This document shows positions 7,359 through 25,011 of a stretch of DNA of 39,573 nt, in pieces. The notes beneath the pieces are model-generated. The model had not been told where the DNA came from. It searched no databases and was given only the letters and a program-made list of their open reading frames with translations. The number at the start of each line of letters is the position of its first letter. Position 1 is the first letter of the stretch. Position numbers and translations under genes: made by a program. Source of the DNA: Chitinophagaceae bacterium (lineage in GTDB: Bacteria; Bacteroidota; Bacteroidia; Chitinophagales; Chitinophagaceae); contig CANGTN010000017.1 of assembly GCA_947456805.1 (NCBI GenBank), positions 1-39,573 on the forward strand. The letters run 5' to 3'.

Positions 7359-7374
7359 ATTATAAATTGATAAA

Positions 7375-9492
7375 TTATTTTTTATTTTCTTCATCCTGTA
7401 ACTTCTCTACAGCCACCAAATCATCAAGATCAATATTCATTGCAATTAATCCAATTTGTACAATTGCACGTTTACCTCTCAATTCTTTTACTTCGCCAAC
7501 CTGATAATTTTTTTTCATTTTTACCATTGTACCAACTGCAATATTTGTATTCAGTTCTTTGTATTTACGATCTACTTTTTTAGCAAGTTTATTCACAATA
7601 ATTTTTTCTTGTTTATTAAACAACAGGTCTTGTAAATTTTTGATTACTTCATTTTTGTTGGTAGATTTTTTCCAATCCAACACAATTTGTTTCAACTTGC
7701 GTTCCATATCTTTCAGGTACACAATTCTATCTTCAGCTACTTTGTTTTGTTCTTTCAACAACTCCACTTGCTGTTTGTGTTTTTCCTTATTCAATACAGC
7801 TTCCATCTCTTTTTTAAGCCGTTCATTTTCTTTCAGTAAACGATTTAATTCTATTTTTTCTTTGTCTAATTGTTGTAAGTTTTGTTCCGTATTATTCAAT
7901 AATTTATCCAGCTTGAAATGTTCTTCATCTACCAGCTTACGTGCTTTATGAATTAAATGTGTTGGCAAGCCAATTCTTTCTGCAATTGAAAAAGTATAGC
8001 TGCTACCTGGTTTTCCAACCATTAATTTATACAATGGTTGTAATTTTTTTTCATCAAAAGCCATCGCACCATTAATAATTCCTTTGGTATGATTTGCCAT
8101 TACTTTTAAATTCAAATAATGGGTGGTTACAATTCCCATGGCATGTCTTTTGCCCAATTCTTCCATAATTACTTCTGCAAATGCACCACCTAGATTAGGG
8201 TCGCTCCCACTGCCCAATTCATCAATAAAAAACAATGTTTTTCCATTGGCAACTTCTATAAAATGCTTCATGTGCATTAAGTGCGAAGAATAGGTACTGA
8301 GCTCAAATTCTATACTTTGTGTGTCGCCAATATGAATAAATAATTGTTTAAAAATTCCCATCTGCGAAGTCGGATGAACCGGCACCAACAAGCCACTCTG
8401 CAACATCATTTGGTTAAGGCCAATGGTTTTCATGGCGACCGTTTTGCCCCCGGCATTCGGTCCGCTGATTACCAAAATTCGATCTGTTTCATCCAATTTT
8501 ATATCCACGGGAATTGTTGGCTTTGCCGCTGCTTTGTTATACAACAACAATAAAGGATGATAAGCATTTATTAATTCTATGTGAGCTTTCTCCATCAAGT
8601 TAGGCATTTCGCCTTGCATATCAATTGCAAGTTTTGCTTTCGCTTTTATAAAATCATACTCACCAATAACCCTTAAATACGACTGCAGCAACGCCCCATA
8701 GATACTAAGTTTAGCGGTTAACTCTTTTAATATCCTTTGAACTTCTCTTCGTTCATCATTCTCTAATGAAAAAACTGCGTTGTTTAATTCAATCGTTTCT
8801 TCGGGCTCTATGAAGGCAGTTTTTCTGCTGTCACTTTCACCATGTAAAATGCCTTTTACTTGTCTTTTATGCTCGCTGAAAACAGCAACAACTCTCCTAC
8901 CTGTACTAAAACTTTCATCAATATCTGCACTATATCCTGCTTTTGCCAACTTTGCCAAAACTTTGTCAAACGTCCGTCGCAGCTCATTTCTCTTTCGGTA
9001 TAAACTCATCCGGATTTTTTGCAGCGCGTCGCTTGCATTGTCTTTTACGTTTCCAGTTTCATCAATTATTTCATCAATTATTTCTATAATAACTTTCTCG
9101 TAATAATTATCTTCTATCACTTTTGCAAGTGATGGAAATGCTATTTTCCTTTCGTAATCAAACCATCTGAAAATATTACCTATAGACTCTGCTAATTTTC
9201 TTACGAGAATAAATTCCTCACCACTTAAAGTAGCACCACTGATACCGATGAGCTTTAGTTCTTTGGAGATATTTTGTAAAAAATCATTAGGAAAATAAAG
9301 ACTTTGTTGCAGTATCAATTTAAACTCGTGTGACTGCCGTAATTCCAGATCAATGTATTCCCGTTTGGTATGAATACGCAAGTAATCTGTTTTTTGTTTT
9401 GCGTATTCAGTTTTGCAATGCTCCCGCAATAGAAATTTTACTTTATCAAATTCCAGTTGTGATAATGCAGATTCCGGATACAACTTCATCAT
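7375..9492 (-). CDS. mutS2: MutS2-family ATPase lacking the Smr domain
   Basis: 705 residues against about 780 in Bacillus MutS2. Core and clamp regions (about 1-300) are followed by the ABC-type ATPase with Walker A GPNAGGKT (344-351) and Walker B FFIDE (421-425) plus the signature region EFELSTYSSH. A long coiled coil (about 520-620) and a KOW-like C-terminal domain (about 645-695) come next. The protein ends where other MutS2 proteins carry a Smr nuclease/ribosome-collision domain. Family roles are suppression of recombination or rescue of collided ribosomes; without Smr, cleavage would need a partner. The start MMKLYPESAL is natural. The 3' end converges on tamL with a 16-bp gap. A weak -7-like TACATTCG lies upstream (9521-9528, complement). 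Confidence 0.88.
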   Translation of the reverse strand: MMKLYPESALSQLEFDKVKFLLREHCKTEYAKQKTDYLRIHTKREYIDLELRQSHEFKLILQQSLYFPNDFLQNISKELKLIGISGATLSGEEFILVRKLAESIGNIFRWFDYERKIAFPSLAKVIEDNYYEKVIIEIIDEIIDETGNVKDNASDALQKIRMSLYRKRNELRRTFDKVLAKLAKAGYSADIDESFSTGRRVVAVFSEHKRQVKGILHGESDSRKTAFIEPEETIELNNAVFSLENDERREVQRILKELTAKLSIYGALLQSYLRVIGEYDFIKAKAKLAIDMQGEMPNLMEKAHIELINAYHPLLLLYNKAAAKPTIPVDIKLDETDRILVISGPNAGGKTVAMKTIGLNQMMLQSGLLVPVHPTSQMGIFKQLFIHIGDTQSIEFELSTYSSHLMHMKHFIEVANGKTLFFIDELGSGSDPNLGGAFAEVIMEELGKRHAMGIVTTHYLNLKVMANHTKGIINGAMAFDEKKLQPLYKLMVGKPGSSYTFSIAERIGLPTHLIHKARKLVDEEHFKLDKLLNNTEQNLQQLDKEKIELNRLLKENERLKKEMEAVLNKEKHKQQVELLKEQNKVAEDRIVYLKDMERKLKQIVLDWKKSTNKNEVIKNLQDLLFNKQEKIIVNKLAKKVDRKYKELNTNIAVGTMVKMKKNYQVGEVKELRGKRAIVQIGLIAMNIDLDDLVAVEKLQDEENKK

Positions 9493-9643
9493 GTATTGTG
9501 CTTCACTTTATTTTGAATTGCGAATGTAATGCAGATTAAATTTATTGAAAGAGAAGTTTGAGGAATTAGTAGTTGATTTAACCTTTTCAAATGAACAAGC
9601 AGAAATTATATAGGTACTAATGTGCCATAAAACTGAAACGCTT

Positions 9644-9651
9644 TAACTTCG
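9644..9651 (+). promoter_or_regulatory. Possible -7 box placing pdxJ transcription start at its ATG
   Basis: TAACTTCG matches TAnnTTTG at seven of eight positions and ends 4 nt before the pdxJ ATG (9656). If used, transcription would begin at or beside the A of the ATG, giving a leaderless mRNA. The -33 element is not clear. Confidence 0.3.
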
Positions 9652-9655
9652 CATC

Positions 9656-10378
9656 ATGACGAAACTTAGTGTAAACATCAACAAATTTGCTACGCTTAGA
9701 AATAGTAGAGGCGGCAAAAGACCTGATGTTGTGAAAGCTGCAATTGATGCACAACTTTTTGGAGCAGATGGTATTACGGTGCATCCAAGACCCGATGAAA
9801 GACATATCACTTACCAGGATGTATTCGACATCAAACAAATTATTACTACAGAATTTAATATTGAAGGAAACCCAACAGAACAAAAATTTATTGATTTGGT
9901 TTTAGCAACCAAACCACATCAGGTAACTTTAGTTCCTGATACTTTAGGACAACTGACAAGTGATCATGGCTGGGATACGATTACCCACAAAGATTATTTA
10001 ATTGAGACGATTGCACTATTTAAATCCGCCGGAATTCGGGTTTCCATTTTTGTAGATCCTGTTATTGAAATGGTGGAAGGCGCAGCTGCAACAGGAACAG
10101 ACAGAATTGAATTGTATACCGAATCTTATGCAAAACATTTTGCTGCCAATGAAAAAACAAACACGATTCAACCCTATATCACTGCTGCACAAAAAGCAAA
10201 AGAAATTGGTTTGGGATTAAATGCAGGGCATGATTTAGACTTACAAAACTTAAAATATTTTGTACAACAAATTCCAATGATAGACGAAGTGAGCATAGGA
10301 CATGCATTGGTATGTGATGCATTGTATTTGGGTTTTGAAAATGCAATTCAGTTGTACAAAAGACAATTGATGCAATAA
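9656..10378 (+). CDS. pdxJ: Pyridoxine 5'-phosphate synthase
   Basis: 240 residues, normal for the family. PdxJ condenses 1-deoxy-D-xylulose 5-phosphate with 3-amino-2-oxopropyl phosphate to make pyridoxine 5'-phosphate, the last step of the DXP-dependent vitamin B6 pathway. The TIM-barrel landmarks are visible: LSVNINKFATLRNSRGG at the N-terminus (phosphate binding, conserved Asn and Arg), ITVHPRPDERHI (His and Arg of the active site, about 40-51), TLVPDTLGQLTSDHGWD (about 94-110) and GLGLNAGHDLDLQN (about 194-207). The start aligns with other PdxJ proteins. Followed by purE after 31 bp on the same strand, probably co-transcribed. Confidence 0.96.
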   Translation: MTKLSVNINKFATLRNSRGGKRPDVVKAAIDAQLFGADGITVHPRPDERHITYQDVFDIKQIITTEFNIEGNPTEQKFIDLVLATKPHQVTLVPDTLGQLTSDHGWDTITHKDYLIETIALFKSAGIRVSIFVDPVIEMVEGAAATGTDRIELYTESYAKHFAANEKTNTIQPYITAAQKAKEIGLGLNAGHDLDLQNLKYFVQQIPMIDEVSIGHALVCDALYLGFENAIQLYKRQLMQ

Positions 10379-10409
10379 AAAAATTATCTTTCCAACTTAA
10401 AATACTTTT

Positions 10410-10934
10410 ATGAATTCAGCTTCTTCTCCATTGGTAGGAATTATTATGGGCAGCGATAGTGATTTGAATATTATGCAGGATGCCGCAAAAATTTTAGAAC
10501 AATTTAATATCCCATTAGAGTTGACCATTGTATCTGCGCATCGCACACCACAACGCATGCTAACGTATGCAACAACTGCAAAAGAAAGAGGTTTGAAAGT
10601 AATTATTGCAGGCGCTGGTGGCGCTGCTCATTTGCCCGGAATGGTTGCTAGCATTACAACTTTACCCGTAATTGGTGTACCCATAAAATCTTCTAATTCA
10701 ATTGATGGATGGGATTCTGTGTTATCAATTTTACAAATGCCCAATGGCGTTCCAGTTGCAACTGTTGCCCTGAATGCAGCAAAAAATGCCGGCATTTTGG
10801 CTGCACAGATTATTGGGACTTCCAATAATGAAGTTGCACAAAAGTTAGCAACTTACAAATCTCAATTAGAAAGTGAAGTGCTAGAAAAAGTGAATAAAAT
10901 AAAGGCTCAATTTTCAAATGAATTTGACAAATAA
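10410..10934 (+). CDS. purE: N5-carboxyaminoimidazole ribonucleotide mutase
   Basis: 174 residues, class I PurE. It moves the carboxyl of N5-CAIR to C4, giving CAIR in de novo purine synthesis. Diagnostic motifs are GSDSD (14-18), the catalytic SAHRTP (42-47), [14 protein letters not shown] (about 65-78) and the [19 protein letters not shown] segment (about 101-119). No purK follows; a convergent terminator closes the transcript directly after the stop. The 31-bp gap to pdxJ and the lack of a clear promoter between them suggest a two-gene operon. Confidence 0.96.
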
Positions 10935-10935
10935 A

Positions 10936-10976
10936 AAAAGCATTGAAATTGATGTTATTCAACTTTCAATGCTTTT
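10936..10976. terminator. Bidirectional terminator between purE and the alpha-oxoamine synthase
   Basis: A 13-bp perfect stem (10936-10948 with 10964-10976) has A-rich left and T-rich right flanks. The loop can pair further (TTGA with TCAA, one bulged C). It begins 2 nt after the purE stop and lies 22 nt from the end of the convergent gene, so it can serve both strands. Confidence 0.85.
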
Positions 10977-10998
10977 AAAATAATTATTTACAACCTTT

Positions 10999-12258
10999 TT
11001 ATCTCACATCAGCCATATCAGGTATTTGAGAAACCTTATAAGCACCTGCATCCAATTTTTCCTTGGTTGCACTGAAAGCTTTTAAAGTAATGTCAATATC
11101 CTCATCGGTATGTGCAGCACTCGGTATTAAACGATAAATGATATGTCCCTTTGGAATTACCGGATACACTACAATAGAAGCAAACACACCATAATTTTCT
11201 CTCAAATCCATACACATTGCTGTTGCTTCTTCTACGCCACCTTTCATGTATACAGGGGTTACGGGCGTATTCGTTGCACCAATATCCAAGCCACGACTTA
11301 CTAAACCTGCTTGTAATTTTTTAGCATTGCTCCACAACTTTTCTTTCAATTCCGGCATTGTACGCAACATATCCAATCTTTTCAAATTACCCAATACAAT
11401 TGGCATTGGTAAGCTTTTTGCAAATATTTGAGAACGGATGTTGTAGCGGATATAATCTATGATAATTCTTGGGCCTGCTAAAAATGCACCAATGCTAGCC
11501 ATGCTTTTTGCAAACGTAGAAAAGTATAAATCAATTCCATCTTGGCAACCTTGCTCCTCGCCTGCACCTGCGCCTGTTTTACCCAAAGTACCAAATCCAT
11601 GAGCATCGTCTACCAACAACCTAAAATCATATTTGTTTTTCAAGTCAACAATTTCTTTCAATTTTCCCTGGTCGCCAGCCATTCCAAAAACACCTTCGGT
11701 AATTACTAAAATTCCACCGGTTTTTTGTTTCTCTATCAATGCAGCAGCACGTTCCAACTGCTTTTCACAATCAGCTACATCATTGTGTTTAAATACATAT
11801 CTGTGTCCCGGATGCAATCGCAAGCCATCGATAATACAAGCATGACTTTCTGCATCATACACAATCACATCATGTCTTCCACAAATAGCATCAATCGTAC
11901 TCATAATACCCTGATAACCAAAATTTAAAAGTATCGCATCTTCTTTATTTTCAAATGCAGCCAATTCTGCTTCTAATTGTTCATGGTAATTACTATTGCC
12001 ACTCATCATTCTTGCACCCATTGGGTAAGCCAAACCATATTGTTGAGAAGCATCTGCGTCAATCTTTCTGATGTCCGGATGATTTGCCAAACCCAAATAA
12101 TTATTCAAACTCCAAACAATCATCTCTTTCCCTCTAAATTTCATGCGGCTGCTGATTTCACCTTCCAATTTTGGAAAAGCGAAGTAGCCATGTGCTCTTT
12201 CTCTATGTTGCCCAATAGGACCATAATTCTTCGCCAGTTTTTCAAAAATGTCTGCCAT
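10999..12258 (-). CDS. Alpha-oxoamine synthase: serine palmitoyltransferase-type (sphingolipid or sulfonolipid synthesis)
   Basis: 419 residues, PLP-dependent fold type I. Landmarks are NNYLGLANHP (52-61), FGYQGIMSTIDAI (113-125), DDAHGFGTLG (217-226) and the PLP lysine K251 in STFAKSMASIGAF. Enzymes of this group join an amino acid to an acyl thioester with decarboxylation. In Bacteroidota close homologues are serine palmitoyltransferases, or cysteate acyltransferases of sulfonolipid synthesis; sequence alone does not separate them here. Glycine C-acetyltransferase and AONS are less likely given the extended N-terminus (FEKLAKNYGPIGQHRE) and C-terminal tail. It has its own promoter (12422-12452) and a leader of about 150 nt with hairpins and the GTGCGACGCC element. 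Confidence 0.85.
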   Translation of the reverse strand: MADIFEKLAKNYGPIGQHRERAHGYFAFPKLEGEISSRMKFRGKEMIVWSLNNYLGLANHPDIRKIDADASQQYGLAYPMGARMMSGNSNYHEQLEAELAAFENKEDAILLNFGYQGIMSTIDAICGRHDVIVYDAESHACIIDGLRLHPGHRYVFKHNDVADCEKQLERAAALIEKQKTGGILVITEGVFGMAGDQGKLKEIVDLKNKYDFRLLVDDAHGFGTLGKTGAGAGEEQGCQDGIDLYFSTFAKSMASIGAFLAGPRIIIDYIRYNIRSQIFAKSLPMPIVLGNLKRLDMLRTMPELKEKLWSNAKKLQAGLVSRGLDIGATNTPVTPVYMKGGVEEATAMCMDLRENYGVFASIVVYPVIPKGHIIYRLIPSAAHTDEDIDITLKAFSATKEKLDAGAYKVSQIPDMADVR

Positions 12259-12318
12259 ATCTAGTCTATTTTAAAAGTTATAGGTATAAAAGTTTGCGGT
12301 TGATTTTAGTAATGAAGA

Positions 12319-12385
12319 GAATTTTGATGTCAGCTACAAAACAAAATTCAACTTTCTCGGCGTCGCACCCTTCAGGGCTTTGTAC
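12319..12385 (-). promoter_or_regulatory. Structured leader of the alpha-oxoamine synthase gene, with GTGCGACGCC copy 2
   Basis: Read on the minus strand: GTACAA (12380-12385), a small CCCT/AGGG inverted repeat, GTGCGACGCC (12359-12368), then an 8-bp perfect stem GAATTTTG/CAAAATTC (12342-12349 with 12319-12326). All of it lies between the predicted transcription start near 12416 and the ATG at 12258. It does not match any riboswitch I recognise. Confidence 0.4.
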
Positions 12386-12421
12386 GTTACCCAACTTTTT
12401 TTATACCCGTTTTAATGTCCG

Positions 12422-12452
12422 CAAAAATAACTGTTTAATAACTATAAGCCAA
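12422..12452 (-). promoter_or_regulatory. Promoter of the alpha-oxoamine synthase gene
   Basis: On the minus strand TTG (12450-12452), 20 bp, then TATTTTTG (12422-12429) fit the TTG-N17-23-TAnnTTTG consensus exactly. The predicted transcription start is near 12416-12418, giving a 5' UTR of roughly 155 nt, long for this window. Confidence 0.6.
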
Positions 12453-12477
12453 CCATAAAATTACCTTGTGGAAAATG

Positions 12478-12485
12478 TACATTTG
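12478..12485 (+). promoter_or_regulatory. -7 box of the pafA-like gene
   Basis: TACATTTG is a perfect TAnnTTTG. The predicted transcription start near 12490 lies after the upstream possible start (12466) and before the ATG at 12505, so it helps choose the start codon. No convincing -33 TTG is placed correctly. Confidence 0.5.
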
Positions 12486-12504
12486 TGCCTTAATTATTCA
12501 TTCC

Positions 12505-14169
12505 ATGAAAACACGAATCATTTTATTGGCAAGTATTCTTTGTTTGCAAGCAGCAGCTCAAAAAACAATTACCCCAAAAAGCAAAGCAACAACAACCGTT
12601 ACAAGCAATCAACCCAAATTGGTCGTTGGTATTGTAATCGATCAAATGCGTTGGGATTATTTGTATCGCTTTCAACCATTGTTCAAAGCAAATGGTGGTT
12701 TTAAAAGAATGATGAGTCAAGGATTTAGTTGCGACAATACTTTTGTTCCATATACACCAACGGTTACAGCCTGCGGGCATACTTGTGTTTACACGGGCAG
12801 TGTTCCCAATGTACATGGCATTACCGGCAATGCCTGGTGGGATAAACAATTGAACAGAACCGTTTATTGCAGCGAAGACAAAACCGTACAAGGTATTGGT
12901 GGCAAAGATGAAGTAACCGGACAAATGAGTCCTAAAAATATGCTTACCACTACTATTTGCGATGAATTGAGATTGAACAGTAATTTTAAAAGTAAAGTAA
13001 TTGGTATTGCCATAAAAGACAGAGGTGCAATTTTGCCTGCCGGACACAGCGCCAATGCTGCTTATTGGTATGATGGCAAAAGTGGAAATTTTATTACAAG
13101 TACATATTACATGAATACATTACCAAACTGGGTAACCGATTTCAACAACAGAAAAGTAACGGATAGCTTGTACAAATTAAACTGGAATACATCATTGGAA
13201 AAATCTGTTTATTTAAACTATGCAACAGCCGATACTAAAGATTATGAAAGCAAACCATTTGGAAAAGAGCAGCTCGGATTTCCGTATGACTTAACCAGAT
13301 ATGTAGGCAAAGATTTTTCTAAAATCAGCAGTACTCCGCATGGAAATACATTAACAGCAGAAATGGCAAAAGCTGCATTGATTGCAGAACAATTGGGTAA
13401 AGGCAGTGCAACCGATTTTTTGGCAATCAGCTTTTCTTCGCCTGATTACATTGGTCATTCTTTCGGACCAAACAGTTGGGAAATGGTAGATGATTATGTA
13501 AAATTAGATGAAGAACTTGGAAAGTTATTTGACCTTTTGGATAAACAATTGGGTGCAGGAAATTATGTAAGCTTTTTAACGGCAGATCATGCGGTGGCGC
13601 ATGTTCCGGGGTTTATGAAAGAAAATAAATTACCCGGCGGAACCGTTGATGATGCAGCACTTGTAAAAGACATGAACAAACAATTGAAAAATGTTTTTAA
13701 TGCAGATAGTTTGATTTTGAGTTCCTATAATTATCAGCTCACTTTAAACCAGCGATCGATTGATAGGAATAATTTAAACAAGGAAAAAATCATCACTTGG
13801 ATTATTGATTATGTGAAAAAAGTAGATGGCATCAGTCAGGTATTTGCCATCAGTGATTTAATGGCAACACCAATTAATAATACACTCAAAGAAATGTTGA
13901 TAAATGGATACAATGCCAATCGTTCGGGTGATATACAAATGATATTTAAGCCAGGTTATATTGATGGCGGAAATACAGGAACTACGCATGGTTTATGGAA
14001 TCCGTATGATGCACATATCCCATTACTTTGGTATGGTTGGGGCATTAAAAAAGGAAGCACCCGCAGAGAAACTTACATGACAGATATTGCAGCAACATTA
14101 GCGGGTTTATTGAAAATACAAATGCCTAGCGGATGTATTGGTAAAGTGATTGAAGAAGTGATACAATAA
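12505..14169 (+). CDS. pafA: PafA-type alkaline phosphatase family protein
   Basis: 554 residues from this ATG, which gives the signal peptide MKTRIILLASILCLQAAAQ; an in-frame codon 39 nt upstream would add a hydrophilic extension and lies before the predicted promoter. PafA-like phosphatases are periplasmic, zinc-dependent phosphomonoesterases of the alkaline phosphatase superfamily, known for being phosphate-insensitive. Metal and active-site landmarks: Asp46 in VIDQMRWDYL, the nucleophile Thr88 in TPTVTACGHT, FSSPDYIGHSFGP (about 309-321), TADHAVAHVP (about 353-362) and TTHGLWNPYDAHIP (about 493-506). The likely role is phosphate scavenging. The gene stands alone, with a structured gene-free region after it. 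Confidence 0.87.
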   Translation: MKTRIILLASILCLQAAAQKTITPKSKATTTVTSNQPKLVVGIVIDQMRWDYLYRFQPLFKANGGFKRMMSQGFSCDNTFVPYTPTVTACGHTCVYTGSVPNVHGITGNAWWDKQLNRTVYCSEDKTVQGIGGKDEVTGQMSPKNMLTTTICDELRLNSNFKSKVIGIAIKDRGAILPAGHSANAAYWYDGKSGNFITSTYYMNTLPNWVTDFNNRKVTDSLYKLNWNTSLEKSVYLNYATADTKDYESKPFGKEQLGFPYDLTRYVGKDFSKISSTPHGNTLTAEMAKAALIAEQLGKGSATDFLAISFSSPDYIGHSFGPNSWEMVDDYVKLDEELGKLFDLLDKQLGAGNYVSFLTADHAVAHVPGFMKENKLPGGTVDDAALVKDMNKQLKNVFNADSLILSSYNYQLTLNQRSIDRNNLNKEKIITWIIDYVKKVDGISQVFAISDLMATPINNTLKEMLINGYNANRSGDIQMIFKPGYIDGGNTGTTHGLWNPYDAHIPLLWYGWGIKKGSTRRETYMTDIAATLAGLLKIQMPSGCIGKVIEEVIQ

Positions 14170-14301
14170 TATTTTGCATTTGTAAATCTAATTTCGGACA
14201 CAGTCCGAAAAATTATTTGACACTAGTGACTCGCTATTGCGGAAGACTTGCGCCAGTGAGTAATTTTTAAAAGTTCAGTAAACTTACAATGTTCAAAGGC
14301 A

Positions 14302-14357
14302 GGGGGATTGCAGCAAAGTAGCCCGCAGCTTTGCGAGGACTACTTGCGTAAAGCCCC
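14302..14357 (+). repeat. Imperfect palindromic element (possible dispersed repeat or small structured RNA)
   Basis: The outer arms GGGGG (14302-14306) and CCCC (14354-14357) enclose a nested stem: AAGTAG-CC-CGCA (14316-14327) pairs with TGCG-A-GG-A-CTACTT (14332-14345), leaving two bulged A residues and the tetraloop GCTT. From memory, intergenic elements of the form GATTGCAGC..AGCCCGC..GCGAGGACT..AAGCCCC recur in Bacteroidota genomes; I could not check this. Transcription and function are unknown. Confidence 0.45.
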
Positions 14358-14590
14358 AACCACAGCCAGACAAAGTGTTTCAGCTGATTGCCCAACAAAT
14401 AAAAATGCAATTGGGTAATCCATTTTTGGTTTGTACGTGTGATACTTCATCTATGAAAACCTTTGTTAGTTTGGATTTTACTATTCTGTATTGATATCGT
14501 ATGCAACATTGAATTGTAGTTTAACAACTGTCGCCAATAGTATACAAATTAAGAACCCTTAGATTTGCGGTTGAAATGAACAATACAAGA

Positions 14591-14621
14591 TTGTTTTAAA
14601 ATCGTTTCATTTCTACGTTTT
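14591..14621 (+). promoter_or_regulatory. Promoter of the MlaD - OstA - NhaA operon
   Basis: TTG (14591-14593), 20 bp, TACGTTTT (14614-14621, one mismatch from TAnnTTTG). The predicted transcription start near 14626 gives a leader of about 15 nt. Confidence 0.45.
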
Positions 14622-14639
14622 ATAAAGCAACAACTACGC

Positions 14640-15650
14640 ATGATGAAAATTTCGAACGAAACCAAAGTAGGCGCATTAACAGCCATCACCATTACTTTGA
14701 TGGTATTGGGCTTCAATTTTTTGAAAGGAAAAAGTTTATTGAAAACGGGCAATTTTATTTATGCCAAATTCAATGATGCCAAAGCTTTGACAACATCTAA
14801 CCCTGTATATGTAAATGGTTTTCAAATAGGCAGCGTTTATGATATTGAAAATGATGATCCCAACTTAAAATCTATCACCGTAGCTATTAAATTGAAAGAC
14901 GAATACAATATTCCGGATAATTCACTTGCTTCTATTAGCAGCAATCCACTTGGAACGCCAAATATTGAAATTGCATTGGGTAACAGCACCAACAAATTAA
15001 CCCATGGTAGTATTATTAAAACCGTTGAAAGTGAAGGGCTATTGGGTGATTTGAAAAATAAATTTGTTCCGATTGCAGACCAACTAAAAACGACCACCAA
15101 AACATTGGACAGCGTATTGAAAAACATTAATTCTATTTTTGATGCAAAGGCAAAAAATAATTTACAAGGAATTGTTGCCAACATTAATAAAACAACGGCT
15201 TCATTAATTGTAAGTAGTGCCTCGATAGAAACAATGCTGAACCAACAAAGTGGAAGCATTGCACAAAGCATGAACAATGTAAATAGTTTTACAAAAAACT
15301 TAACCGCTCAAAATGATAAAATCAATAGCACTTTGGGCAACCTCGAAAAAACATCTGCACAATTAGCTGCATCGGATATTGCAGGTTCTGTAAACCAATT
15401 GAAAGGTGCCATTGAAAATTTGAATGGGGTTATTAAAAAAATTGATTCGAAAGAAGGTACATTGGGATTGTTGGTAAACGATAAAACTTTGTATAATAAC
15501 TTAACCAACACCGTACGAAGCGCCAATATATTAATGGATGACTTGAAAACACATCCGAAGCGTTATGTAAATATTTCTGTGTTTGGAAAAAAAGACAAAT
15601 CTACTCCCCTCTCTGCACCAATCAATGATACTTTAACCAAGAAACCTTAA
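14640..15650 (+). CDS. MlaD/MCE-domain lipid-transport protein
   Basis: 336 residues. One N-terminal membrane anchor (about 10-28, ALTAITITLMVLGFNFL) is followed by a single MCE domain (about 35-115: FNDAKALTTSNPVYVNGFQI, then the SNPLGTPNIEIALG core). A long helical C-terminal region rich in Asn, Thr and Ser (about 130-310) resembles the tunnel-forming helices of MlaD/PqiB/YebT-type proteins. Such proteins bind lipids in the periplasm and work with an MlaE-type permease and MlaF-type ATPase, neither of which is visible here. The stop overlaps the next start (TAATG), so it is probably translationally coupled to the OstA-like gene. The start could be either of two adjacent ATGs. Confidence 0.85.
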   Translation: MMKISNETKVGALTAITITLMVLGFNFLKGKSLLKTGNFIYAKFNDAKALTTSNPVYVNGFQIGSVYDIENDDPNLKSITVAIKLKDEYNIPDNSLASISSNPLGTPNIEIALGNSTNKLTHGSIIKTVESEGLLGDLKNKFVPIADQLKTTTKTLDSVLKNINSIFDAKAKNNLQGIVANINKTTASLIVSSASIETMLNQQSGSIAQSMNNVNSFTKNLTAQNDKINSTLGNLEKTSAQLAASDIAGSVNQLKGAIENLNGVIKKIDSKEGTLGLLVNDKTLYNNLTNTVRSANILMDDLKTHPKRYVNISVFGKKDKSTPLSAPINDTLTKKP

Positions 15651-17275
15651 TGCAACCGTTTTTCAAAAAAATATTTTTCTATGCACTATTTATTGTTGCG
15701 GCAAAAGCCAATGCTCAACAGCAAATTGATACATTGCAGAAAGGGAAAAAATTAGATGTGTTGTTTGCAGAAAGGATGAACATCAGAAAAATAGATTCGG
15801 GCGGACAGTTTATTTCATATGCAGGTAACGTTCGTTTGAAACAAGGAAAAACATTATTTAATGCGGATAGTATCGTATTGAATGAAAAAGAAAATACCAT
15901 TGAAGCTTTTGGGAAAGTGCATATTAACGATGCAGACAGCGTACAAACTTATGCAGACTACTTAAAATACATTGGCAACATTAAAAAAGCTTACCTCAAA
16001 AAAAATGTAAAACTTACCGATGGTAAAGGCATACTTACTACCAACGATTTGGAGTATGATTTGAACACAAAAATTGGTACGTATTTAAATGGCGGAAAAG
16101 TAATCAATGGCAAGACAGTGCTCACAAGTAAAGAGGGATATTATTACGGAGAAACAAGAGACATTTATTTTAAAAACAAAGTGGTGCTGATTGATCCGGG
16201 TTATAAAATAAATACAGATACACTGTTGTATAACACCTATAGCAATGTTGCCAATTTTGTTACTACAACAAAAATTGTAACGAACGACAGAAAAATTAAA
16301 ACCAAAGACGGTTACTACGATTTAAAAAACAAAAAAGCCTACTTTGGCAAACGCCCTGAAATAGAAGATAGTACAAGCATTTTGAAAGCCAATGAAATGA
16401 ATTTTGATGACAGTACGGGTATTTCTATTTTTAAAGGAGATGTTGTATACAAAGGAAAAGATACAAATGGCGGTTATGATTTAATTACCAACCGACTTGA
16501 AACAAACAGTAAAAAAAGTTCTTTCATTGCTACGGAAGCCCCAATCCTATTGATCAAGCAAGGAAGAGATTCTGTATTTATTCGTGCAGATACTTTGAAA
16601 TCGGCGAAGCTTTCAGATTTTTTAAAAACTAGAAAAGTTCCCAATATCAGGGATTCAATGACAGGCAAAAATGCATTCCTTACTGCACAACCTAAGGACA
16701 CTGCCAATGATAAATATTTTGAAGCGCATGCACATGTAAGAATTTTTTCAGACTCATTGCAGGCTGTTGGCGATAGTTTGTTTTATACTTTGCAGGATTC
16801 TGTTTTTCGATTGTTCAAAAATCCAATTGTATGGGCCCAGGAAAATCAAATTAATGGAGATACAATTTATCTTTTCATGGAAAACAGAAAGCCACAACGC
16901 ATCAAAGTTTTTGAAAATGCATTGACAATTAATTTGATAGGAAAAGAATATTACAATCAACTTGGCGGAAAAACGCTCAATGCTTTATTTATTGATGGAA
17001 AAATCAATTACATGCGTTGCAAAGGAAACCCTGCACAAAGCATTTATTATGGTGTTGATGAAAATGGAAAATTTTTTGGTGTAAACAAAGCTGGCGCTGA
17101 TTTAATTGATATGTACTTCTCAGACAATAAACCAGAAAGGGTTGTATTTAGAAATAAATTAGAAGGAACAACTTACCCAATGGGACAAGTGAATCACAAT
17201 GAATTAAGATTGCGAGGTTTTAAATGGATGGTAGAAAAAAGACCAAAATCTAAATTTGAAATTTTAACCAATTAA
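15650..17275 (+). CDS. OstA-like protein (LptA/LptD N-terminal domain repeats)
   Basis: 541 residues with signal peptide MQPFFKKIFFYALFIVAAKA, cleaved near ANAQ. The body is a run of beta-jellyroll OstA repeats, seen as recurring short strands of the type FNADSIVLNEKENTIEAFGK, YGETRDIYFKNKVVLID and ILKANEMNFDDSTGISIFKG. This is the fold of LptA and the LptD N-terminus, which form the periplasmic LPS bridge. The protein lacks the LptD barrel, so a bridge or lipid-carrier role is inferred. It overlaps the MlaD gene by 1 nt and precedes nhaA by 17 bp. An MCE protein next to an OstA-like protein suggests joint work in moving lipids across the periplasm. Confidence 0.83.
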   Translation: MQPFFKKIFFYALFIVAAKANAQQQIDTLQKGKKLDVLFAERMNIRKIDSGGQFISYAGNVRLKQGKTLFNADSIVLNEKENTIEAFGKVHINDADSVQTYADYLKYIGNIKKAYLKKNVKLTDGKGILTTNDLEYDLNTKIGTYLNGGKVINGKTVLTSKEGYYYGETRDIYFKNKVVLIDPGYKINTDTLLYNTYSNVANFVTTTKIVTNDRKIKTKDGYYDLKNKKAYFGKRPEIEDSTSILKANEMNFDDSTGISIFKGDVVYKGKDTNGGYDLITNRLETNSKKSSFIATEAPILLIKQGRDSVFIRADTLKSAKLSDFLKTRKVPNIRDSMTGKNAFLTAQPKDTANDKYFEAHAHVRIFSDSLQAVGDSLFYTLQDSVFRLFKNPIVWAQENQINGDTIYLFMENRKPQRIKVFENALTINLIGKEYYNQLGGKTLNALFIDGKINYMRCKGNPAQSIYYGVDENGKFFGVNKAGADLIDMYFSDNKPERVVFRNKLEGTTYPMGQVNHNELRLRGFKWMVEKRPKSKFEILTN

Positions 17276-17292
17276 CCCCTTGCTTGATTGCC

Positions 17293-18471
17293 ATGTTACA
17301 GTATATCAAAAATACTTTTTTACATCCGCTACAAGAATTTATACACGACAGTAGAGCAATTGGAATTACCTTATTATTTTGTACAGCGGTTTCACTTGTG
17401 TTGGCAAATATGGGTGGCCTTATCAGCAGCAGCTACATTCATTTCTGGGAATTTCATTTTGACAACACCAACAATCATCATACACATATTGGCATATTAA
17501 GTTTGCCCAATTCTCCATTGGTAATCATCAATGATTTTTTGATGGCATTTTTCTTTTTTCTGGCGGGTATGGAAATTAAAAGAGAAATCCTTCAGGGAGA
17601 ACTTGCTTCTTTAAAAAAATCAATTTTACCAATAGTTGCAGCCATTGGGGGGATGATTGTTCCTGCCATTCTTTTTATCCAATTTAACAGTAATGGAATT
17701 TACACAAAAGGCTGGGCTATACCAACTGCAACTGATATTGCATTTACTTTAGGAGTCGCTTCTTTACTAGGAAAAAGAGTTCCTATTGCATTGAAAGTTT
17801 TTATTACAGCACTGGCAATCATAGATGATTTAGGCGCAATCATTGTAATTGCATTGTTTTATGGGGGCAGCATCAAACTATTGTATTTATTGGGTTGTGT
17901 TTTTATTACAGGGATTTTTTTACTGCTGAAAAAGTTTCAGGTAAAATTTGGATTGGTACATTTTATTTTAGGATTTGTACTTTGGTACTGCATGTTCAAT
18001 TCAGGAATTCATGCAACAGTTGCAGGCGTTGTATTTGCATTGTTTATTCCGGTTGATAAACTGATCACCTTTGAATTAAAGTTACATGCACCTGTTTATT
18101 TTTTAATTATGCCCATTTTTGCTTTGGCAAACACAGCAATTGTATTTCCTGAAAATGGTTTGTCTGCTTTATCCAATAATTTAAGCTGGGGAATTATTGC
18201 AGGACTTGTCATAGGAAAACCTTTGGGCATTTGTGGTGCCAGTTACGTATTGGTAAAAATGGGAATTGCACAATTACCCAATAGTACAAATTGGTATCAA
18301 ATGATTGGTGCTTCTATATTAGCGGGTATTGGATTTACCATGAGTATTTTTATTGCAACACTTGCATTCACAAATATTTATGAACAGAATATCTCTAAAA
18401 TTTCTGTTTTAGTAGCCTCTTTTGCTGCAATGATAATAGGATTTGTATGGCTGAGATTGAGTAAGAAATAA
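17293..18471 (+). CDS. nhaA: Na+/H+ antiporter NhaA
   Basis: 392 residues from the ATG at 17293; a TTG 9 nt upstream is possible but less likely because MLQYIKNTFLHPLQ is the usual family opening. NhaA exports Na+ in exchange for H+ across the inner membrane. Visible motifs: FLAGMEIKREILQGEL (about 89-104), the transport aspartates D178-D179 in AIIDDLGAI, D148 in TATDIAF (equivalent of E. coli D133) and the GKPLGICG lysine (equivalent of K300). About 11-12 hydrophobic segments. It lies 17 bp after the OstA-like gene, so is probably read from the same transcript. It converges on the YhhN-like gene with a 22-bp gap and no clear terminator. Confidence 0.95.
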   Translation: MLQYIKNTFLHPLQEFIHDSRAIGITLLFCTAVSLVLANMGGLISSSYIHFWEFHFDNTNNHHTHIGILSLPNSPLVIINDFLMAFFFFLAGMEIKREILQGELASLKKSILPIVAAIGGMIVPAILFIQFNSNGIYTKGWAIPTATDIAFTLGVASLLGKRVPIALKVFITALAIIDDLGAIIVIALFYGGSIKLLYLLGCVFITGIFLLLKKFQVKFGLVHFILGFVLWYCMFNSGIHATVAGVVFALFIPVDKLITFELKLHAPVYFLIMPIFALANTAIVFPENGLSALSNNLSWGIIAGLVIGKPLGICGASYVLVKMGIAQLPNSTNWYQMIGASILAGIGFTMSIFIATLAFTNIYEQNISKISVLVASFAAMIIGFVWLRLSKK

Positions 18472-18493
18472 TGTTTATAAAACCCTACCTCAA

Positions 18494-19219
18494 CTACAAT
18501 CCACTTAAGTATTTAGCATAACCTTTAGCTGTATAATAATGACCAAAATAAAAAGTAAATACAATTAAAAGCTGCATAAAATTGAAATCTACATTTTTCA
18601 GCTTAAGACCTAAATTCAATAAGGTTGAGAATAAAAAAAGTAAAATGCCCGGTAAAAAAAAGTTGATACCCAATTGTTTACGTTGCTTATTTGCACAAAG
18701 ATTTGCTACAAAAATACCACCAATTGCCAGCGAAAGAAGGTATAAAACAGCAGCCAACTTGAAAATTAAGGATTGATCATTAAACTCATTATCTATCAAT
18801 TTGTAAAAGTTAAGATAAACAAACATAAAACCAACGGTAGTAAAAATCATGTATGCCAGCCCCTTGCCTTTGTAATTCACATCAAGAAGTTTGGCAATGA
18901 AGAAAACAAAAAAAACAGTTGAAGCAGTTAGTAAAAGTAAATTGATATTAAACCAGTAGGTATTATCTTTCAAAAGAAGTAAATCTGCAATCCAGGCAAA
19001 GGCTAGTGAACATAAAACGATCTGTTTGAAGTCAATGCGACTATTCTTTTTTGAAACCGCAGCCACATAAATGCAAAGCGATGGAATTAATATTATCCTC
19101 AAATAATCGGTATGATTGGTTGAAATATTAAAGTAGTCAACTATAAATAAGTCTATACAGTACCCATAGAAAATTACATTACAAATGATTAAACTATATT
19201 GTTTTAAGAATTTTTTCAT
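18494..19219 (-). CDS. YhhN/TMEM86-family membrane protein (lysoplasmalogenase-like, altered second Asp)
   Basis: 241 residues, about eight hydrophobic segments and little else. The arrangement fits the YhhN family: SLAFAWIADLLLLKD (about 71-85, with the conserved Asp79), a LPGILLFLFSTLL segment (189-201) where relatives usually read LLFxxSD, and a C-terminal LLIVFTFYFGHYYTAKG (217-233). YhhN/TMEM86 members hydrolyse the vinyl ether bond of lysoplasmalogen. Here the second conserved acidic position appears to be Thr199, so catalytic activity is doubtful, and the family assignment itself is moderate. It converges on nhaA. Confidence 0.55.
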   Translation of the reverse strand: MKKFLKQYSLIICNVIFYGYCIDLFIVDYFNISTNHTDYLRIILIPSLCIYVAAVSKKNSRIDFKQIVLCSLAFAWIADLLLLKDNTYWFNINLLLLTASTVFFVFFIAKLLDVNYKGKGLAYMIFTTVGFMFVYLNFYKLIDNEFNDQSLIFKLAAVLYLLSLAIGGIFVANLCANKQRKQLGINFFLPGILLFLFSTLLNLGLKLKNVDFNFMQLLIVFTFYFGHYYTAKGYAKYLSGL

Positions 19220-19307
19220 TATGTCCTATTATGACTTTTAAAACCAACAAATTTAAGAGATTCTGAATTTTAAAAGTGATTAAATATCATTTCTAGAGTA
19301 ATCATTT

Positions 19308-19315
19308 TACATTTG
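19308..19315 (+). promoter_or_regulatory. -7 box directly before the 111-residue membrane protein gene
   Basis: TACATTTG is a perfect TAnnTTTG and ends 4 nt before the ATG at 19320. With the usual spacing, transcription would begin at the ATG itself, giving a leaderless mRNA. No -33 TTG at the expected distance. Confidence 0.4.
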
Positions 19316-19319
19316 CAGT

Positions 19320-19655
19320 ATGTTAAGTGAAAAGGAGGAAACATTTTTGCTTTATTGGAGTGAAAACAGAAGCCGACAAAAACAAAGAACAAAACAGTTT
19401 ATAATTGGCTTGGCAACTGGTTTAGCATTTGGGCTGTCCATACTGTTTTTTATTTTTTCAGGTTGGTACACAAGAGCTACAATGATTGCAAACAGCCGAC
19501 TCAACCCAATTTTATTTTTTTTCATTATCATTGCAATTGCTGTTTTCATGGCGTATTTCTACAGAAATTACAAATGGGAAATGTATGAGCAACAATACAA
19601 AGAATTAACTATGAAAAAGAAAAAAGCGAACCCTGACATGCAACAAAAAGACTAA
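19320..19655 (+). CDS. Small two-helix membrane protein of unknown function
   Basis: 111 residues; not a family I recognise. It begins with a charged cytoplasmic stretch (LSEKEETFLLYWSENRSRQK), followed by two membrane helices (about 28-48 and 63-80) and a basic, coiled-coil-like C-terminal tail ending in KKKKANPDMQQKD. The pattern is of a small inner membrane protein with both ends in the cytoplasm. The FKBP lipoprotein gene starts 32 bp downstream on the same strand, so they may share a transcript. A perfect -7 box sits directly before its ATG. Confidence 0.7.
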   Translation: MLSEKEETFLLYWSENRSRQKQRTKQFIIGLATGLAFGLSILFFIFSGWYTRATMIANSRLNPILFFFIIIAIAVFMAYFYRNYKWEMYEQQYKELTMKKKKANPDMQQKD

Positions 19656-19687
19656 CACATAACTCACCATAAATAACAACATAGAGA

Positions 19688-20152
19688 ATGAAAAACAATT
19701 GCCTTTATTTACTTATTCCAATTTTACTTTTTAGTTCATGTGCAAAAGACAAAGCATGCACACAACAAGATCCTAGCTTAGAAAAAACAGCCATAATTGA
19801 CTATTGTAATGCCAATGCCATCACTTACACACAAGATCCTTCCGGAATTTTTTACCAAATTATTACACCGGGATCCGGCCCTCAACCCACAGCATCTTCC
19901 AGAGTATTTATCTACTACACAGGAAAGTACTTAAATGGAACAACTTTTGATCAATTGAGTGATCCAACCCGTTCAGGATGGACATTAAGTAGTTTAATTG
20001 AAGGTTGGAAAATTGGAATACCCTTGATAAGAAAAGGTGGCAGAATAAAACTTATAATCCCTTCCGCCTTAGCTTATGGATGTACCGGTTATGCTTCCAT
20101 TCCGCCAAATACACCACTGTATTTTGATGTCACATTAACCGATGTTCAATAA
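19688..20152 (+). CDS. FKBP-type peptidyl-prolyl cis-trans isomerase lipoprotein
   Basis: 154 residues. The signal peptide ends in the lipobox FSSC (Cys18), so the protein is a lipoprotein of the cell envelope. The FKBP domain covers about 45-154, with RVFIYYTGKYLNGTTFD (the YTG strand and conserved Phe-Asp), LIEGWKIGIPLIRKGGRIKL and IIPSALAYG (active-site aromatic Tyr), ending in a typical YFDVTLTDVQ strand. It likely assists folding of exported proteins, in keeping with secDF 125 bp downstream. Spacing suggests secDF has its own promoter. Confidence 0.92.
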   Translation: MKNNCLYLLIPILLFSSCAKDKACTQQDPSLEKTAIIDYCNANAITYTQDPSGIFYQIITPGSGPQPTASSRVFIYYTGKYLNGTTFDQLSDPTRSGWTLSSLIEGWKIGIPLIRKGGRIKLIIPSALAYGCTGYASIPPNTPLYFDVTLTDVQ

Positions 20153-20210
20153 CTTTCAAACATCTTAGCCAAGGATTGGTTAACAAATAAACAATAACGC
20201 TGGTTATAGA

Positions 20211-20243
20211 TTGATTTTTGAGAATACCATTCCCCTATCTTTG
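20211..20243 (+). promoter_or_regulatory. Promoter of secDF
   Basis: TTG (20211-20213), 22 bp, TATCTTTG (20236-20243), an exact TTG-N17-23-TAnnTTTG match. A second TTTG at 20217-20220 is 15 bp away. The predicted leader is about 30 nt. Confidence 0.6.
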
Positions 20244-20277
20244 CCCACTCTAAAAATTTTGTAAAACCGTTAATAAT

Positions 20278-23200
20278 ATGCAACTTAAAGGTTTAGTTCG
20301 ATTTTTTGCGATTGCACTTATCGTAATCTGTTTGTATCAATTGTCATTTACTTGGTTGGTACATAACCACGAAAGCACTATGGAAAGTAAGGCTGATAAA
20401 TGGTTGGCTGCCAACTATCCAACTCCAGAACAAAAGTATGCCGGAAATACAGAAGCGAAAGCTTTGTATGAAGACACATTAAAGCAAATTAAAAAAGCTC
20501 GTTTACAGCGTTTGCTAGATAGTACAAAAGACACTAAAATTGGACCTTTTGGCTTAGCAACTTATCAAAGTGCGAAAGACAGAGAATTGATGCTTGGCTT
20601 GGATTTGCAAGGAGGAATGAGTGTTACAATGGAAGTTGGTTTGGATGGTTTAATTAAGTCTTTAGCCAATTATACAAAAGACCCTCAGTTTACCAAAGCA
20701 TTGGATGAAGCTGTAAAACTGAAAGCTAATAGCGGCTCAGACCTTGTTACACTTTTTACCAATGAATACAAAAAAATCAATCCTACCGGCAAATTAGCTC
20801 CTTATTTTGCTGTAAGAAGCAATGGCAAAATTAAATTTGATGCTGCCGATGCTACCGTGATTGCCTATTTAAGAGAACAATCTGATGTTGCTTTTGAAAA
20901 TACCTACAGAATTTTACGTACACGTATCGACAAATTTGGCGTATCATCTCCTAACATCAACAAGAACCCTTCTAAAGGAATTATTACAATTGAATTAGCA
21001 GGTGTTAATGATCCTGAAAGAGTTCGTAAATATTTACAATCTACTGCCAATCTTCAATTTTTTGAAGTTTATACTGTAGAGAGTGAAGAACTAAGAAATG
21101 GTTTACAATCGGCTGATAAAGCTTTACAGGATTATTTGAACGGTGTCAAAGCAACTGCTAAATCTGATACAACAATAAAAGCAGCAACTGTATCAGTTAA
21201 AGTTGATAGCACTGCAACAAGAAAAATATCGGATGTTGATACCAACAAAGCAACTGCTAAAAACGATACTTCTAAAAATAAAATCAATGCAAACCCAATC
21301 AGCAGTTTATTTACTATGGGTTCTGCGCAACAACCATACCGTGGTGCAAACAACACAACAATTTATCCTGCATCATTAGCTTATGTGCAAACAAAAGACA
21401 CAGGTTTGTTGAATCAATATTTGGCAATGGAAGTTGTGAAGAGCAAATTTCCTTCTACCCTAACATTTATGTATGGTAAAGCAGAAGATGAAAAAGGCAC
21501 AACTGCTGCTAATAAATTGAACTTGTATGCCATTAAAACTTTAGAAAATGGGCAAGCGAAATTAGAAGGTGAACATGTTGCAGAAGCAAGACAAGATTAT
21601 GAAGGAAGCAAGGTAGTAATCAGAATGAACATGGATAAAGAAGGTACGAAACTTTGGGGTGATCTTACTACTAAAAATGTTGGAAGACCTATCGCAGTAG
21701 TTTTAGATAATATGGTTTATTCTGCACCAAATGTAAATGAACCTATCACAACAGGAAGTTCTCAAATTTCCGGAAACTATACCATTAAAGAAGCGCAAGA
21801 TTTATCAGAAATATTACAAACAGGTAAATTGCCTGCACCGGCTAAAATTGTTCAGGAACAAGTAATCGGACCAACCTTAGGAGCTGCTGCTGTTAAAGGC
21901 GGAACAATGAGTTTTGCCGTTTCTTTCTTGGTAATTTTTGTTTTGATGTTGTTGTACTACAACACAGCAGGATGGGTTGCTAACATTGCTTTGATTTTAA
22001 ACTTATTGTTTACAATCGGTGTTTTGGCAAGCTGGGGCTTTACTTTAACAGCTCCCGGTATCGCAGGTTTGGTATTAACAATTGGTATGGCTGTAGATAC
22101 CAACGTAATTATTTTTGAAAGGATTAAAGAAGAATTGAACAAAGGCAAAGGATATACATCTGCTGTAAACGATGGTTACAAAAGATCACTGGCTCCAGTA
22201 TTAGATGCCCATGTTACTACATTCTTAACTGCATTCATATTGTTCGTGTTTGGCTTAGGTCCGGTATTAGGATTTGCAACAACACAAATGTTGGGTATCG
22301 TATTGAGTTTGTTCTGCGGTATTTTGGTTTCTCGTTTGATAACTGATTTATATATTGGTAAAAAAGGAAGACACTTTGAATACTTCACAGGATTGTCTCG
22401 TAAAGTATTTAAACATGCATCTTACAAATTCATTGAATACAGAAAAGTAGCTTACGGAATTTCAGTAATAGTATTATTATTGGGTGTAGGTTCTTTCTTC
22501 AATGGTTTTGATGAAGGTGTAGAATTTGCAGGTGGTAGAAGCTATACGGTGCGCTTTGACAAACCGGTATCTCCTGATGCAATCAGAGATGATTTGAAAG
22601 CAGTGTTTAATAATGAAACGCCAATCATAAAAACGGTTGGAACAAACAATCAATTAGATATTACCACTTCTTATAAAATACACGAAACAGGTAATAAAAT
22701 TGATAATGAAGTAGAGCAAGCATTATTTACAGGTTTGAAAAAGCAATTACCTGCAGGTCTTACTTATGTTGAGTTTGACAGCAAATACAAACAAAGTTCT
22801 CAAACAGTATTACCAACTATTTCTGATGAATTAAAATCAGGAGCAATCAAGGCGGCAATATTTGCAATGTTGATTATTTGTTTCTACATCTTCATCAGAT
22901 TTAGAGACTGGCGTTATTCGATGGGTACAATAGTAGCCTTATTGCATGACGTTTTTGTAACATTAGCGGTATTCTCTTTCTTACGCAAATTTGTACCATT
23001 CCCATTAGAGATTGACCAACACTTTATTGCAGCTGTATTAACAGTAATTGGTTTCTCTATGAATGATACCGTAATTGTTTACGATAGAATTCGTGAGGAT
23101 AGCAAACTATATCCAAGCATGAACAAAGAACAAATAATTAATACTGCGATTAACCAAACATTGAGCAGAACTATCATGACTTCATTAACCGTGTTCTTAA

Positions 23201-23370: not shown

Positions 23371-23392
23371 TCGCTTTCATAATAAAACTGAG

Positions 23393-23428
23393 AGAGGCAA
23401 TTGTTGTATAACATTTGCCTCTTTTTTT
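23393..23428 (+). terminator. Rho-independent terminator after secDF
   Basis: 8-bp perfect stem AGAGGCAA/TTGCCTCT (23393-23400 with 23415-23422), 14-nt loop, then a run of seven T. Confidence 0.85.
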
Positions 23429-23665
23429 ATGGTTTACTTTAGGGTGAATTGATTTTATGGATAAAAACGTAAAATAGATTGCTGACGGATAATACAGATA
23501 GCGTTTATATTTAATTTACACAGATTTACAGACAAGTATTATATGTTCATTTATTTTAAGCCTCTGTAAAACGCATTTAAGCCAACCCAATTGTATTCTT
23601 ATGAATTACCAAACGTTTTGACTAACTCAATTTTGAATTGGCAATTACTATCAATAAATTATTTA
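23429..23665. other. Gene-free spacer between secDF and ribBA
   Basis: AT-rich sequence with no ORF, RNA gene or clear signal. It includes an ATTTACACAGATTTACAG stretch of the kind often left in Bacteroidota intergenic DNA; no second copy is seen in this window. Confidence 0.4.
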
Positions 23666-24871: not shown

Positions 24872-24890
24872 CTAGAAATTATTTAGGTTG

Positions 24891-24898
24891 CAAATGTA
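24891..24898 (-). promoter_or_regulatory. -7 box of ribBA
   Basis: On the minus strand TACATTTG, an exact TAnnTTTG, ends 19 nt before the ribBA ATG, implying a leader of about 15 nt, too short to hold an FMN riboswitch. The -33 element is unclear. Confidence 0.5.
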
Positions 24899-25011
24899 AT
24901 AATATGTACCAGGTAAAAGATATTGTTTAGAAGTAATTACAAGCTTCGCAAAGAGGAAAATATTCATTTTTAGAGGATAGTTACTAAAAATCAAAATTTG
25001 TTAACATTTTG

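Follow-up and report, generated by a model that had tools for sequence, protein, structure and literature searches.

The intergenic region between pafA and mlaD

The window, i.e., the whole stretch of 39,573 nucleotides analysed, contains a gap between pafA and the mlaD-ostA operon (14170-14639, no strand assigned), which according to the ORF list measures exactly 470 bp between the end of the pafA ORF at 14169 and the start of the mlaD ORF at 14640. The pafA product matched the NCBIfam model alk_phos_PafA with 740.5 bits (cut-off 650), and the operon genes following the gap were matched by Pfam MlaD and OstA_2. The gap holds two repeat modules, referred to as B and A. The region of the hairpins (14192-14420) has a G+C content of 0.44, and that of 14302-14358 is 0.58, compared to 0.34 in the window and 0.31 in 14421-14639; the elevated G/C noted earlier from the letters alone is therefore real.

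This sequence-only reading had also described four hairpins in the gene-free 470 bp, with stems of 8, 7, about 14 and 10 bp. The gap and the 8-bp and 10-bp hairpins were confirmed, and the other two had to be redefined. The 8-bp hairpin (14192-14210, no strand; TTTCGGAC ACA GTCCGAAA) is hairpin 2 of module B, which is the gene-proximal one in the end of a RAYT (REP-associated tyrosine transposase) unit. The 7-bp stem can pair, but represents an alternative pairing of this copy; the family hairpin at this place is hairpin 1 of module B (14223-14250, no strand), which is decayed and was defined by alignment to 14 other B-type stretches. As read from the alignment, two of its six outer pairs are lost in this copy. 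The stem of about 14 bp is present and forms the middle part of a more extended, imperfect hairpin (14303-14357, plus strand), the core hairpin of module A, in which helices and internal loops follow a Flavo-1-like order. Hairpin 4 (14386-14420, no strand; 10 bp, arms 14386-14395 and 14411-14420) is composed of a left arm formed by the 3' end of module A and a right arm in the flank. The right arm also occurs in the orthologue in the sister species G005, but was not seen in the 40-nt flanks of the other aligned A copies, and hairpin 4 is not a feature of the A family.

The number of perfect hairpins in the region is not above chance: a single perfect stem of at least 7 bp (loops of 3-24) was found, which was equalled in 101 of 300 dinucleotide shuffles and in 138 of 343 sliding windows. 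The folding energy of both family modules is beyond chance, with z-scores of -4.0 for 14188-14262 and of -3.8 for 14302-14358 on the plus strand; the minus strand of the latter (-2.2) and hairpin 4 (-2.05) are mildly unusual. What makes the cluster non-random is the recurrence of its sequence in the genome.

Two dispersed repeat families and a RAYT gene in the sister species

The genome to which the window belongs (G000) is a draft of 2.4 Mb in 128 contigs and 98.86% complete. Searching it with 14100-14500, a check proposed together with the earlier reading, yielded 19 matches, itself included, the others being 74-88% identical. The matches belong to two families that meet at about 14264, and the proposed 'mosaic of palindromic repeats' was thus borne out, as two dispersed families abut in the gap. 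A lack of further genomic copies, named with the earlier reading as an argument against the finding, does not apply. Module B, a RAYT-type end (14188-14260, plus strand; similarity to other copies spans about 14179-14263), has the order hairpin 2, hairpin 1, tag, and occurs in copies in G000 and G005. The tag CGCCAGTGAG (reverse complement CTCACTGGCG; 14251-14260, plus strand) is the outer end of RAYT-flanking modules. Module A, an extended Flavo-1-like element (14265-14404, plus strand), was matched at 14275-14399 with 142.2 bits by R2, a covariance model built from 22 A copies only, this very copy included.

Among 59 genomes (our own and 58 relatives), DNA matches were found in G000, G005 (18) and G004 (1), all belonging to one genus. 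A consensus of the A core, compared to a collection with one genome per species (84,980 species) from which the window's own genome or a very near one may be missing, hit seven contigs, all of the MAG 'Chitinophagaceae bacterium isolate ZE-13may13-156'. Of the R2 matches in the 59 genomes, 21 are in G000 (13 scoring over 100 bits), 16 in G005 (10 over 100 bits), seven in G004 and one each in G007 and G016. None of the 23 strong A copies (13 in G000 and 10 in G005, orthologous pairs being counted twice) or of the 14 B copies examined falls within an ORF of at least 100 aa. Copies of B and A are therefore dispersed, intergenic and multicopy, the properties by which REP and REPIN sequences are recognised, and the cluster is made up of two worn copies of dispersed hairpin-forming repeats. 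At least eight of the 13 A copies of G000 are shared with G005 by position among the loci compared, and many are therefore old. Both flanks are collinear between the two species at the A sites on C18, C3 and C24; gene order or content differs at C88, C11, C41 (a B copy), C8 and at C17 of G005, and the flanks of C72 of G000 gave no match in G005. Two A copies of G000 lie at contig ends (at the end of C61 and the start of C56), a sign of repeats breaking the assembly.

G005 is collinear with positions 5000-24999 of the window at 86-91% identity and differs at the pafA-mlaD gap and in one unaligned stretch of about 0.2 kb. In its gap, pafA is followed by a B copy, a short reverse B piece, an ORF of 182 aa, a second B copy, module A, and mlaD. 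The ORF product was matched by NCBIfam REP_Tyr_transpos NF047646 with 87.6 bits (cut-off 80) and by Pfam Y1_Tnp with 30.5 (cut-off 23), and has the motifs NHVH and YLHENP, by which it is classified as a RAYT. A PDB search with this protein returned nothing credible (best E 0.66). HUH and catalytic-Y motifs are present in all 10 RAYT genes on the plus strand, to which this count was confined (the other 20 of the 30 RAYT loci have the gene on the minus strand). With the G005 protein as query, 36 of the 59 genomes (our own being among the 59) matched at E of at most 0.001, and the G000 draft gave no match at this threshold. The B copies of G000 therefore have no detectable transposase, and the situation looks like that after RAYT loss; the gene may also sit in an assembly gap, since the assembly is split into 128 contigs and is interrupted at two of the A copies.

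At several sites the two modules are joined. An alignment of ten copies at seven non-orthologous sites extends from the B tag across both hairpins and on into A. These junctions vary in quality. The C11 sites of both species have a complete A and a B that is 95-100% alike. At C17 of G005, B reaches 94% and the A behind it is truncated, and at L043 and its orthologue L011c the junction is seen by alignment with only part of A. For C3/C1, C2 and C8, the similarity to B is weak (69-79% over 28-67 bp). The two C7 sites adjoin paralogous genes, and gene duplication is a possible source of these. By BLAST, the junction is clear only at C11/C11 and at C17 of G005. In our reading, a B-A unit of about 215 bp has probably spread, a conclusion to which the uneven quality gives less weight. 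Upstream of several A copies, B is replaced by a third dispersed module, C (L025:719-847, L018:2106-2236, L012:2168-2293).

The RAYT unit of G005 lies inside a C-A element and between two copies of TATCTGGGTTA, a direct repeat of 11 bp (L025:833-843 and 1586-1596). The repeat is compatible with a target duplication; alternatively, it stems from recombination between repeats. Y1 transposases are not known to make target duplications, and the repeat therefore fits a Y1 enzyme poorly. Relative to G005, the window has B in reverse orientation and lacks module C, the RAYT unit and the spacer. A deletion would explain these differences; the B-A stretch of the window lacks a spacer of about 30 bp which simple recombination between two B copies would have kept. 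Elsewhere, about 60 nt without a gene separate a B copy from a B-type end in reverse orientation (L027:1240-1440), an arrangement resembling a RAYT unit with its inside deleted.

Ends of RAYT loci and probable mobility of the modules

Read on the opposite strand, module B consists of CTCACTGGCGC, hairpin 1, GTGTC, a spacer and hairpin 2. Other RAYT genes of the order are flanked in the same way, by hairpins of different sequence. The grammar tested was [N][G/A]GCGC followed by a perfect stem (5 bp or longer) and GTG. It occurred at 12 sites in six of 30 RAYT loci, every site being outside the matched gene. Among the controls it was found in one of 71 loci, this one being a B copy of G005 (seven of originally 78 loci overlapped known A, B or RAYT sites and had been removed beforehand), and in three of 600 mononucleotide shuffles. 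Four loci (L049, L052, L058 and L071) have the grammar on both sides with the tags pointing outward, L048 has it on one side, and L047 on the right side, with GTT instead of GTG on the left. At the remaining 24 of the 30 RAYT loci the tag grammar is absent, several of them having other two-hairpin inverted flanks as judged by eye. The stem sequences differ among the six loci, with complementarity retained, an indication that selection acts on the folded strand. In the window, the B copy no longer follows the strict grammar and is therefore regarded as decayed. One of the RAYT loci, in G027, is accompanied by a tandem array of units of about 170 bp (L053:2229-2917).

This kind of RAYT end is known, as atypical flanks (PMC6006769) and double-palindromic RAYT ends (PMC3733652) have been reported, and the order of tag, hairpin, GTG and hairpin may be a new detail. 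With subclass 2.6 of the TnpAY1 proteins of Bacteroidetes, the G005 RAYT shares the phylum, a Y1 HUH protein of about 180 aa with NHVH, and a gene flanked by palindromes without GTRG, which are also dispersed in the genome (PMC6006769). In module B, the GTRG at the foot of canonical REP hairpins is likewise missing, the tag being CTGGCGC / GTG, and the G005 gene is flanked by inverted hairpin repeats, i.e., the second B copy and the reverse B piece. Of the subclass signatures NH[LIV]H, WQ and YIH[QN]NP, the G005 RAYT has the first as NHVH and deviates in the others, which read WK and YLHENP. That study refers to 'atypical secondary structures' in the flanks, and the order of tag, hairpin 1, GTG and hairpin 2 was not found in the portion of it that was covered. 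The TIRYT and TIRtron elements resemble the present case in their flanking inverted repeats, some of them double-palindromic, and in forming moderately abundant dispersed families (PMC3733652). For E. coli strains, the same work describes loss of the transposase unit by deletion. Some of these TIRs share GGGGWSAS, in contrast to CTGGCGC...GTG here, and no mention of the present genomes was found in the portion of the paper available. REPINs and BIMEs (PMC3116915, PMC6006769) are similarly short, intergenic, hairpin-forming, non-autonomous and presumably moved in trans by a RAYT; however, a REPIN is an inverted pair of REPs, whereas the composite described here joins two different modules.

The cluster is probably a mosaic of non-autonomous elements which were once moved by a Bacteroidota RAYT, and the site in the window looks like a decayed RAYT locus. 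Module B would be the isolated end of a RAYT unit, in which a tag precedes two hairpins, and thus a putative substrate that a Y1 (HUH) transposase of the REP-associated type would recognise and cut in single-stranded form. The RAYT would cut the folded single strand at B ends, and B ends or the B-A composite would have been moved in trans into gaps between genes. The transposase gene may subsequently have been lost from G000 by deletion at the site, rather than gained by the sister species; upon this loss the copies would decay, and those in G000 may now be inert. This reading is supported by the dispersed intergenic copies, the RAYT with B ends in the sister species, the lack of a detected RAYT in the draft, the recurring junction and the relatedness of module A and Flavo-1. 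Against it speak the age of many A copies, the uneven junctions, covariation within A that is no better than in controls, the small number of RAYTs near Flavo-1 or A, the 24 RAYT loci lacking the tag grammar and the poor fit of the 11-bp repeat. A search for clean empty sites, with L015, L022 and L017 of G000 in G005 and with L029 of G005 in G000, yielded none, as the flanks are rearranged or missing; L015 and L022 were also searched in five other congeners. Mobility of the modules is therefore something we infer. The earlier idea of a 'recombination or insertion scar' is plausible, as the gap of G005 is about 0.9 kb longer precisely here and includes the RAYT gene, and as pafA and mlaD adjoin in no more than two of the 10 congeners compared. 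In kind, the cluster is ordinary, consisting of decayed RAYT-type repeats; what is uncommon is that its second half is related to an orphan 'RNA' family and, at several sites, accompanies the first.

Alternatively, the gap could be the joint of an old chromosome rearrangement, with the repeats serving as substrate for homologous recombination and not for transposition, which we regard as unlikely. Of 10 congeners, our own included, G000 and G005 are the only ones in which pafA has mlaD as its neighbour; in the other eight, the matches to the two genes are on different contigs. Synteny is lost on one side at C88, C11 and C41 of G000, and at C91 of G000 compared to C17 of G005, the two species differ in length at C7, C2 and C8, and the 20 kb around the site are otherwise collinear save the unaligned 0.2 kb. 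However, the other genomes are drafts, repeats gather in break-tolerant gaps, and the baseline is a single 20-kb stretch. The fully collinear A sites at C18, C3 and C24 also argue against a joint, which in addition leaves both the RAYT gene and the recurring B-A junction unexplained.

Relationship of module A to Flavo-1

Near one of the A copies, a repeat at L010:2223-2345 was identified as Flavo-1 (Rfam RF01705; 51.2 bits, gathering 42), and the Rfam alignment of this homologous copy (L010:2236-2311) is part of the evidence for the helix order given for the core hairpin. Flavo-1 matches numbered 13 in G000, 13 in G005 and 63 in G036, and were obtained in 25 of the 59 genomes, our own included, at E of at most 0.001, in 14 of the 59 above the cut-off and in none of 14 control genomes. 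None of the 13 matches of the Rfam model in G000 is an A copy. In the window, Rfam at gathering threshold returned only tRNA and no Flavo-1, and at E up to 5 the stretch 14100-14660 gave only a TMV pseudoknot and ceN100, both far below their gathering scores.

The A-derived model R2 recovers Flavo-1 in 16 of 32 loci at E of at most 0.01 (best 59.2 bits, E 7e-11), two of the 16, L116 and L160, being one place. The alignments span all 125 positions in 15 of the 16, and 13 of the 16 are above the Rfam cut-off, with L149, L151 and L153 below. The other 16 loci, among them L117, L122, L133 and L157 of G036 and L135/L136, were missed by R2. Common to A and Flavo-1 are GGC...GCC, GATTGCAG, AAAGCC and, downstream, GTTGCAGC; their inner arms are different. 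From these similarities we read A as a probable divergent and extended subfamily of Flavo-1 (Weinberg 2010, PMC2864571), which it resembles in the order of helices and internal loops, as judged by alignment, and in flanking sequence. It is set apart from Flavo-1 by an exchanged inner arm, by its greater length, by being missed by the Rfam model and by its joining to a RAYT-type end at several sites. Inspection for attC sites, a coding repeat or IS200-type ends yielded no fit for A.

R2 matches near RAYTs were obtained at two of 30 loci, one of which is the syntenic locus of the sister species, and no Flavo-1 at gathering threshold was found in the 20 of 30 RAYT loci scanned. Six of 30 Flavo-1 loci lie inside ORFs of at least 100 aa; as for orientation, the motif rule left 17 of the 30 unoriented and the count was set aside. 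Two further observations concern other relatives. In G016, which belongs to another genus, a Flavo-1/A-like element (L057:161-300, 36.2 bits) is located about 1.2 kb from a RAYT gene. G036, a relative from another family, has 21 RAYT matches, many of them fragments, besides its 63 Flavo-1 matches, and the two share few contigs among the matches listed.

Tentatively, and as an idea that we hold to be possible rather than probable, Flavo-1 might be misfiled as an sRNA and instead represent a module of Bacteroidota mobile elements of the dispersed, single-stranded-DNA kind, which in this genus has been joined to and spread by RAYT-type ends, the conserved fold being a transposase substrate. A mobile or repeat reading of Flavo-1 was not found in the portions of the literature covered (PMC9723704, PMC2864571 and PMC9029176); RF01705 is also named in PMC3765529 and PMC7682815. 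A review places Flavo-1 among the most abundant sRNA families (PMC9029176). If the mobile-DNA reading is true, annotations and sRNA censuses that count Flavo-1 as a regulator need correcting. Beyond this, the present data provide a readable end grammar for part of the Bacteroidota RAYT units and link a dispersed composite element with an Rfam 'sRNA' family that had lacked an explanation.

A rival reading, in line with the small RNA considered in the sequence-only reading, would make A a transcribed regulatory RNA, either a divergent Flavo-1 sRNA or a cis-element, that has been selected in many copies and lies close to B by accident. We consider this quite improbable. A is homologous to a family which is filed as sRNA in Rfam and was rated 'RNA? 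y' (probably) by its discoverers (PMC2864571), and its better folding on the plus strand (z -3.8 vs. -2.2) is what a one-stranded function would give. However, the 20 A copies flanked by genes on both sides have no preferred direction towards these (eight in tandem in the same direction, seven in tandem in the opposite direction, five convergent and none divergent, with orthologues of the two species entered separately). Covariation among 22 A copies was uninformative and no better than in the controls, as one pair has a double change and shuffled or slid structures did equally well or better. In F. psychrophilum, Flavo-1 matches are reported to lie sense or antisense to transcripts or outside of them, and the published transcriptome could not assign it a function (PMC9723704). 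Finally, the B-A junction recurs.

That the hairpins are just the pafA terminator plus chance structure is highly improbable, because the same sequences occur with 74-88% identity in more than a dozen other places, which refutes this as a full account even though the count of perfect stems is not above chance and a consensus terminator scan lists the hairpin 22 bases after the pafA stop codon as terminator-like on both strands. The sequence-only reading had suggested one of the hairpins as phosphatase terminator; this terminator-like hairpin recurs in B copies beside unrelated genes and is therefore part of the repeat, although it may have a secondary role as terminator.

Upstream of pafA, the window contains another short dispersed repeat with a CCCTTCAGGG palindrome (12347-12402), which has five matches in G005 (on C6, C8, C2, C13 and C11) with 78-92% identity.
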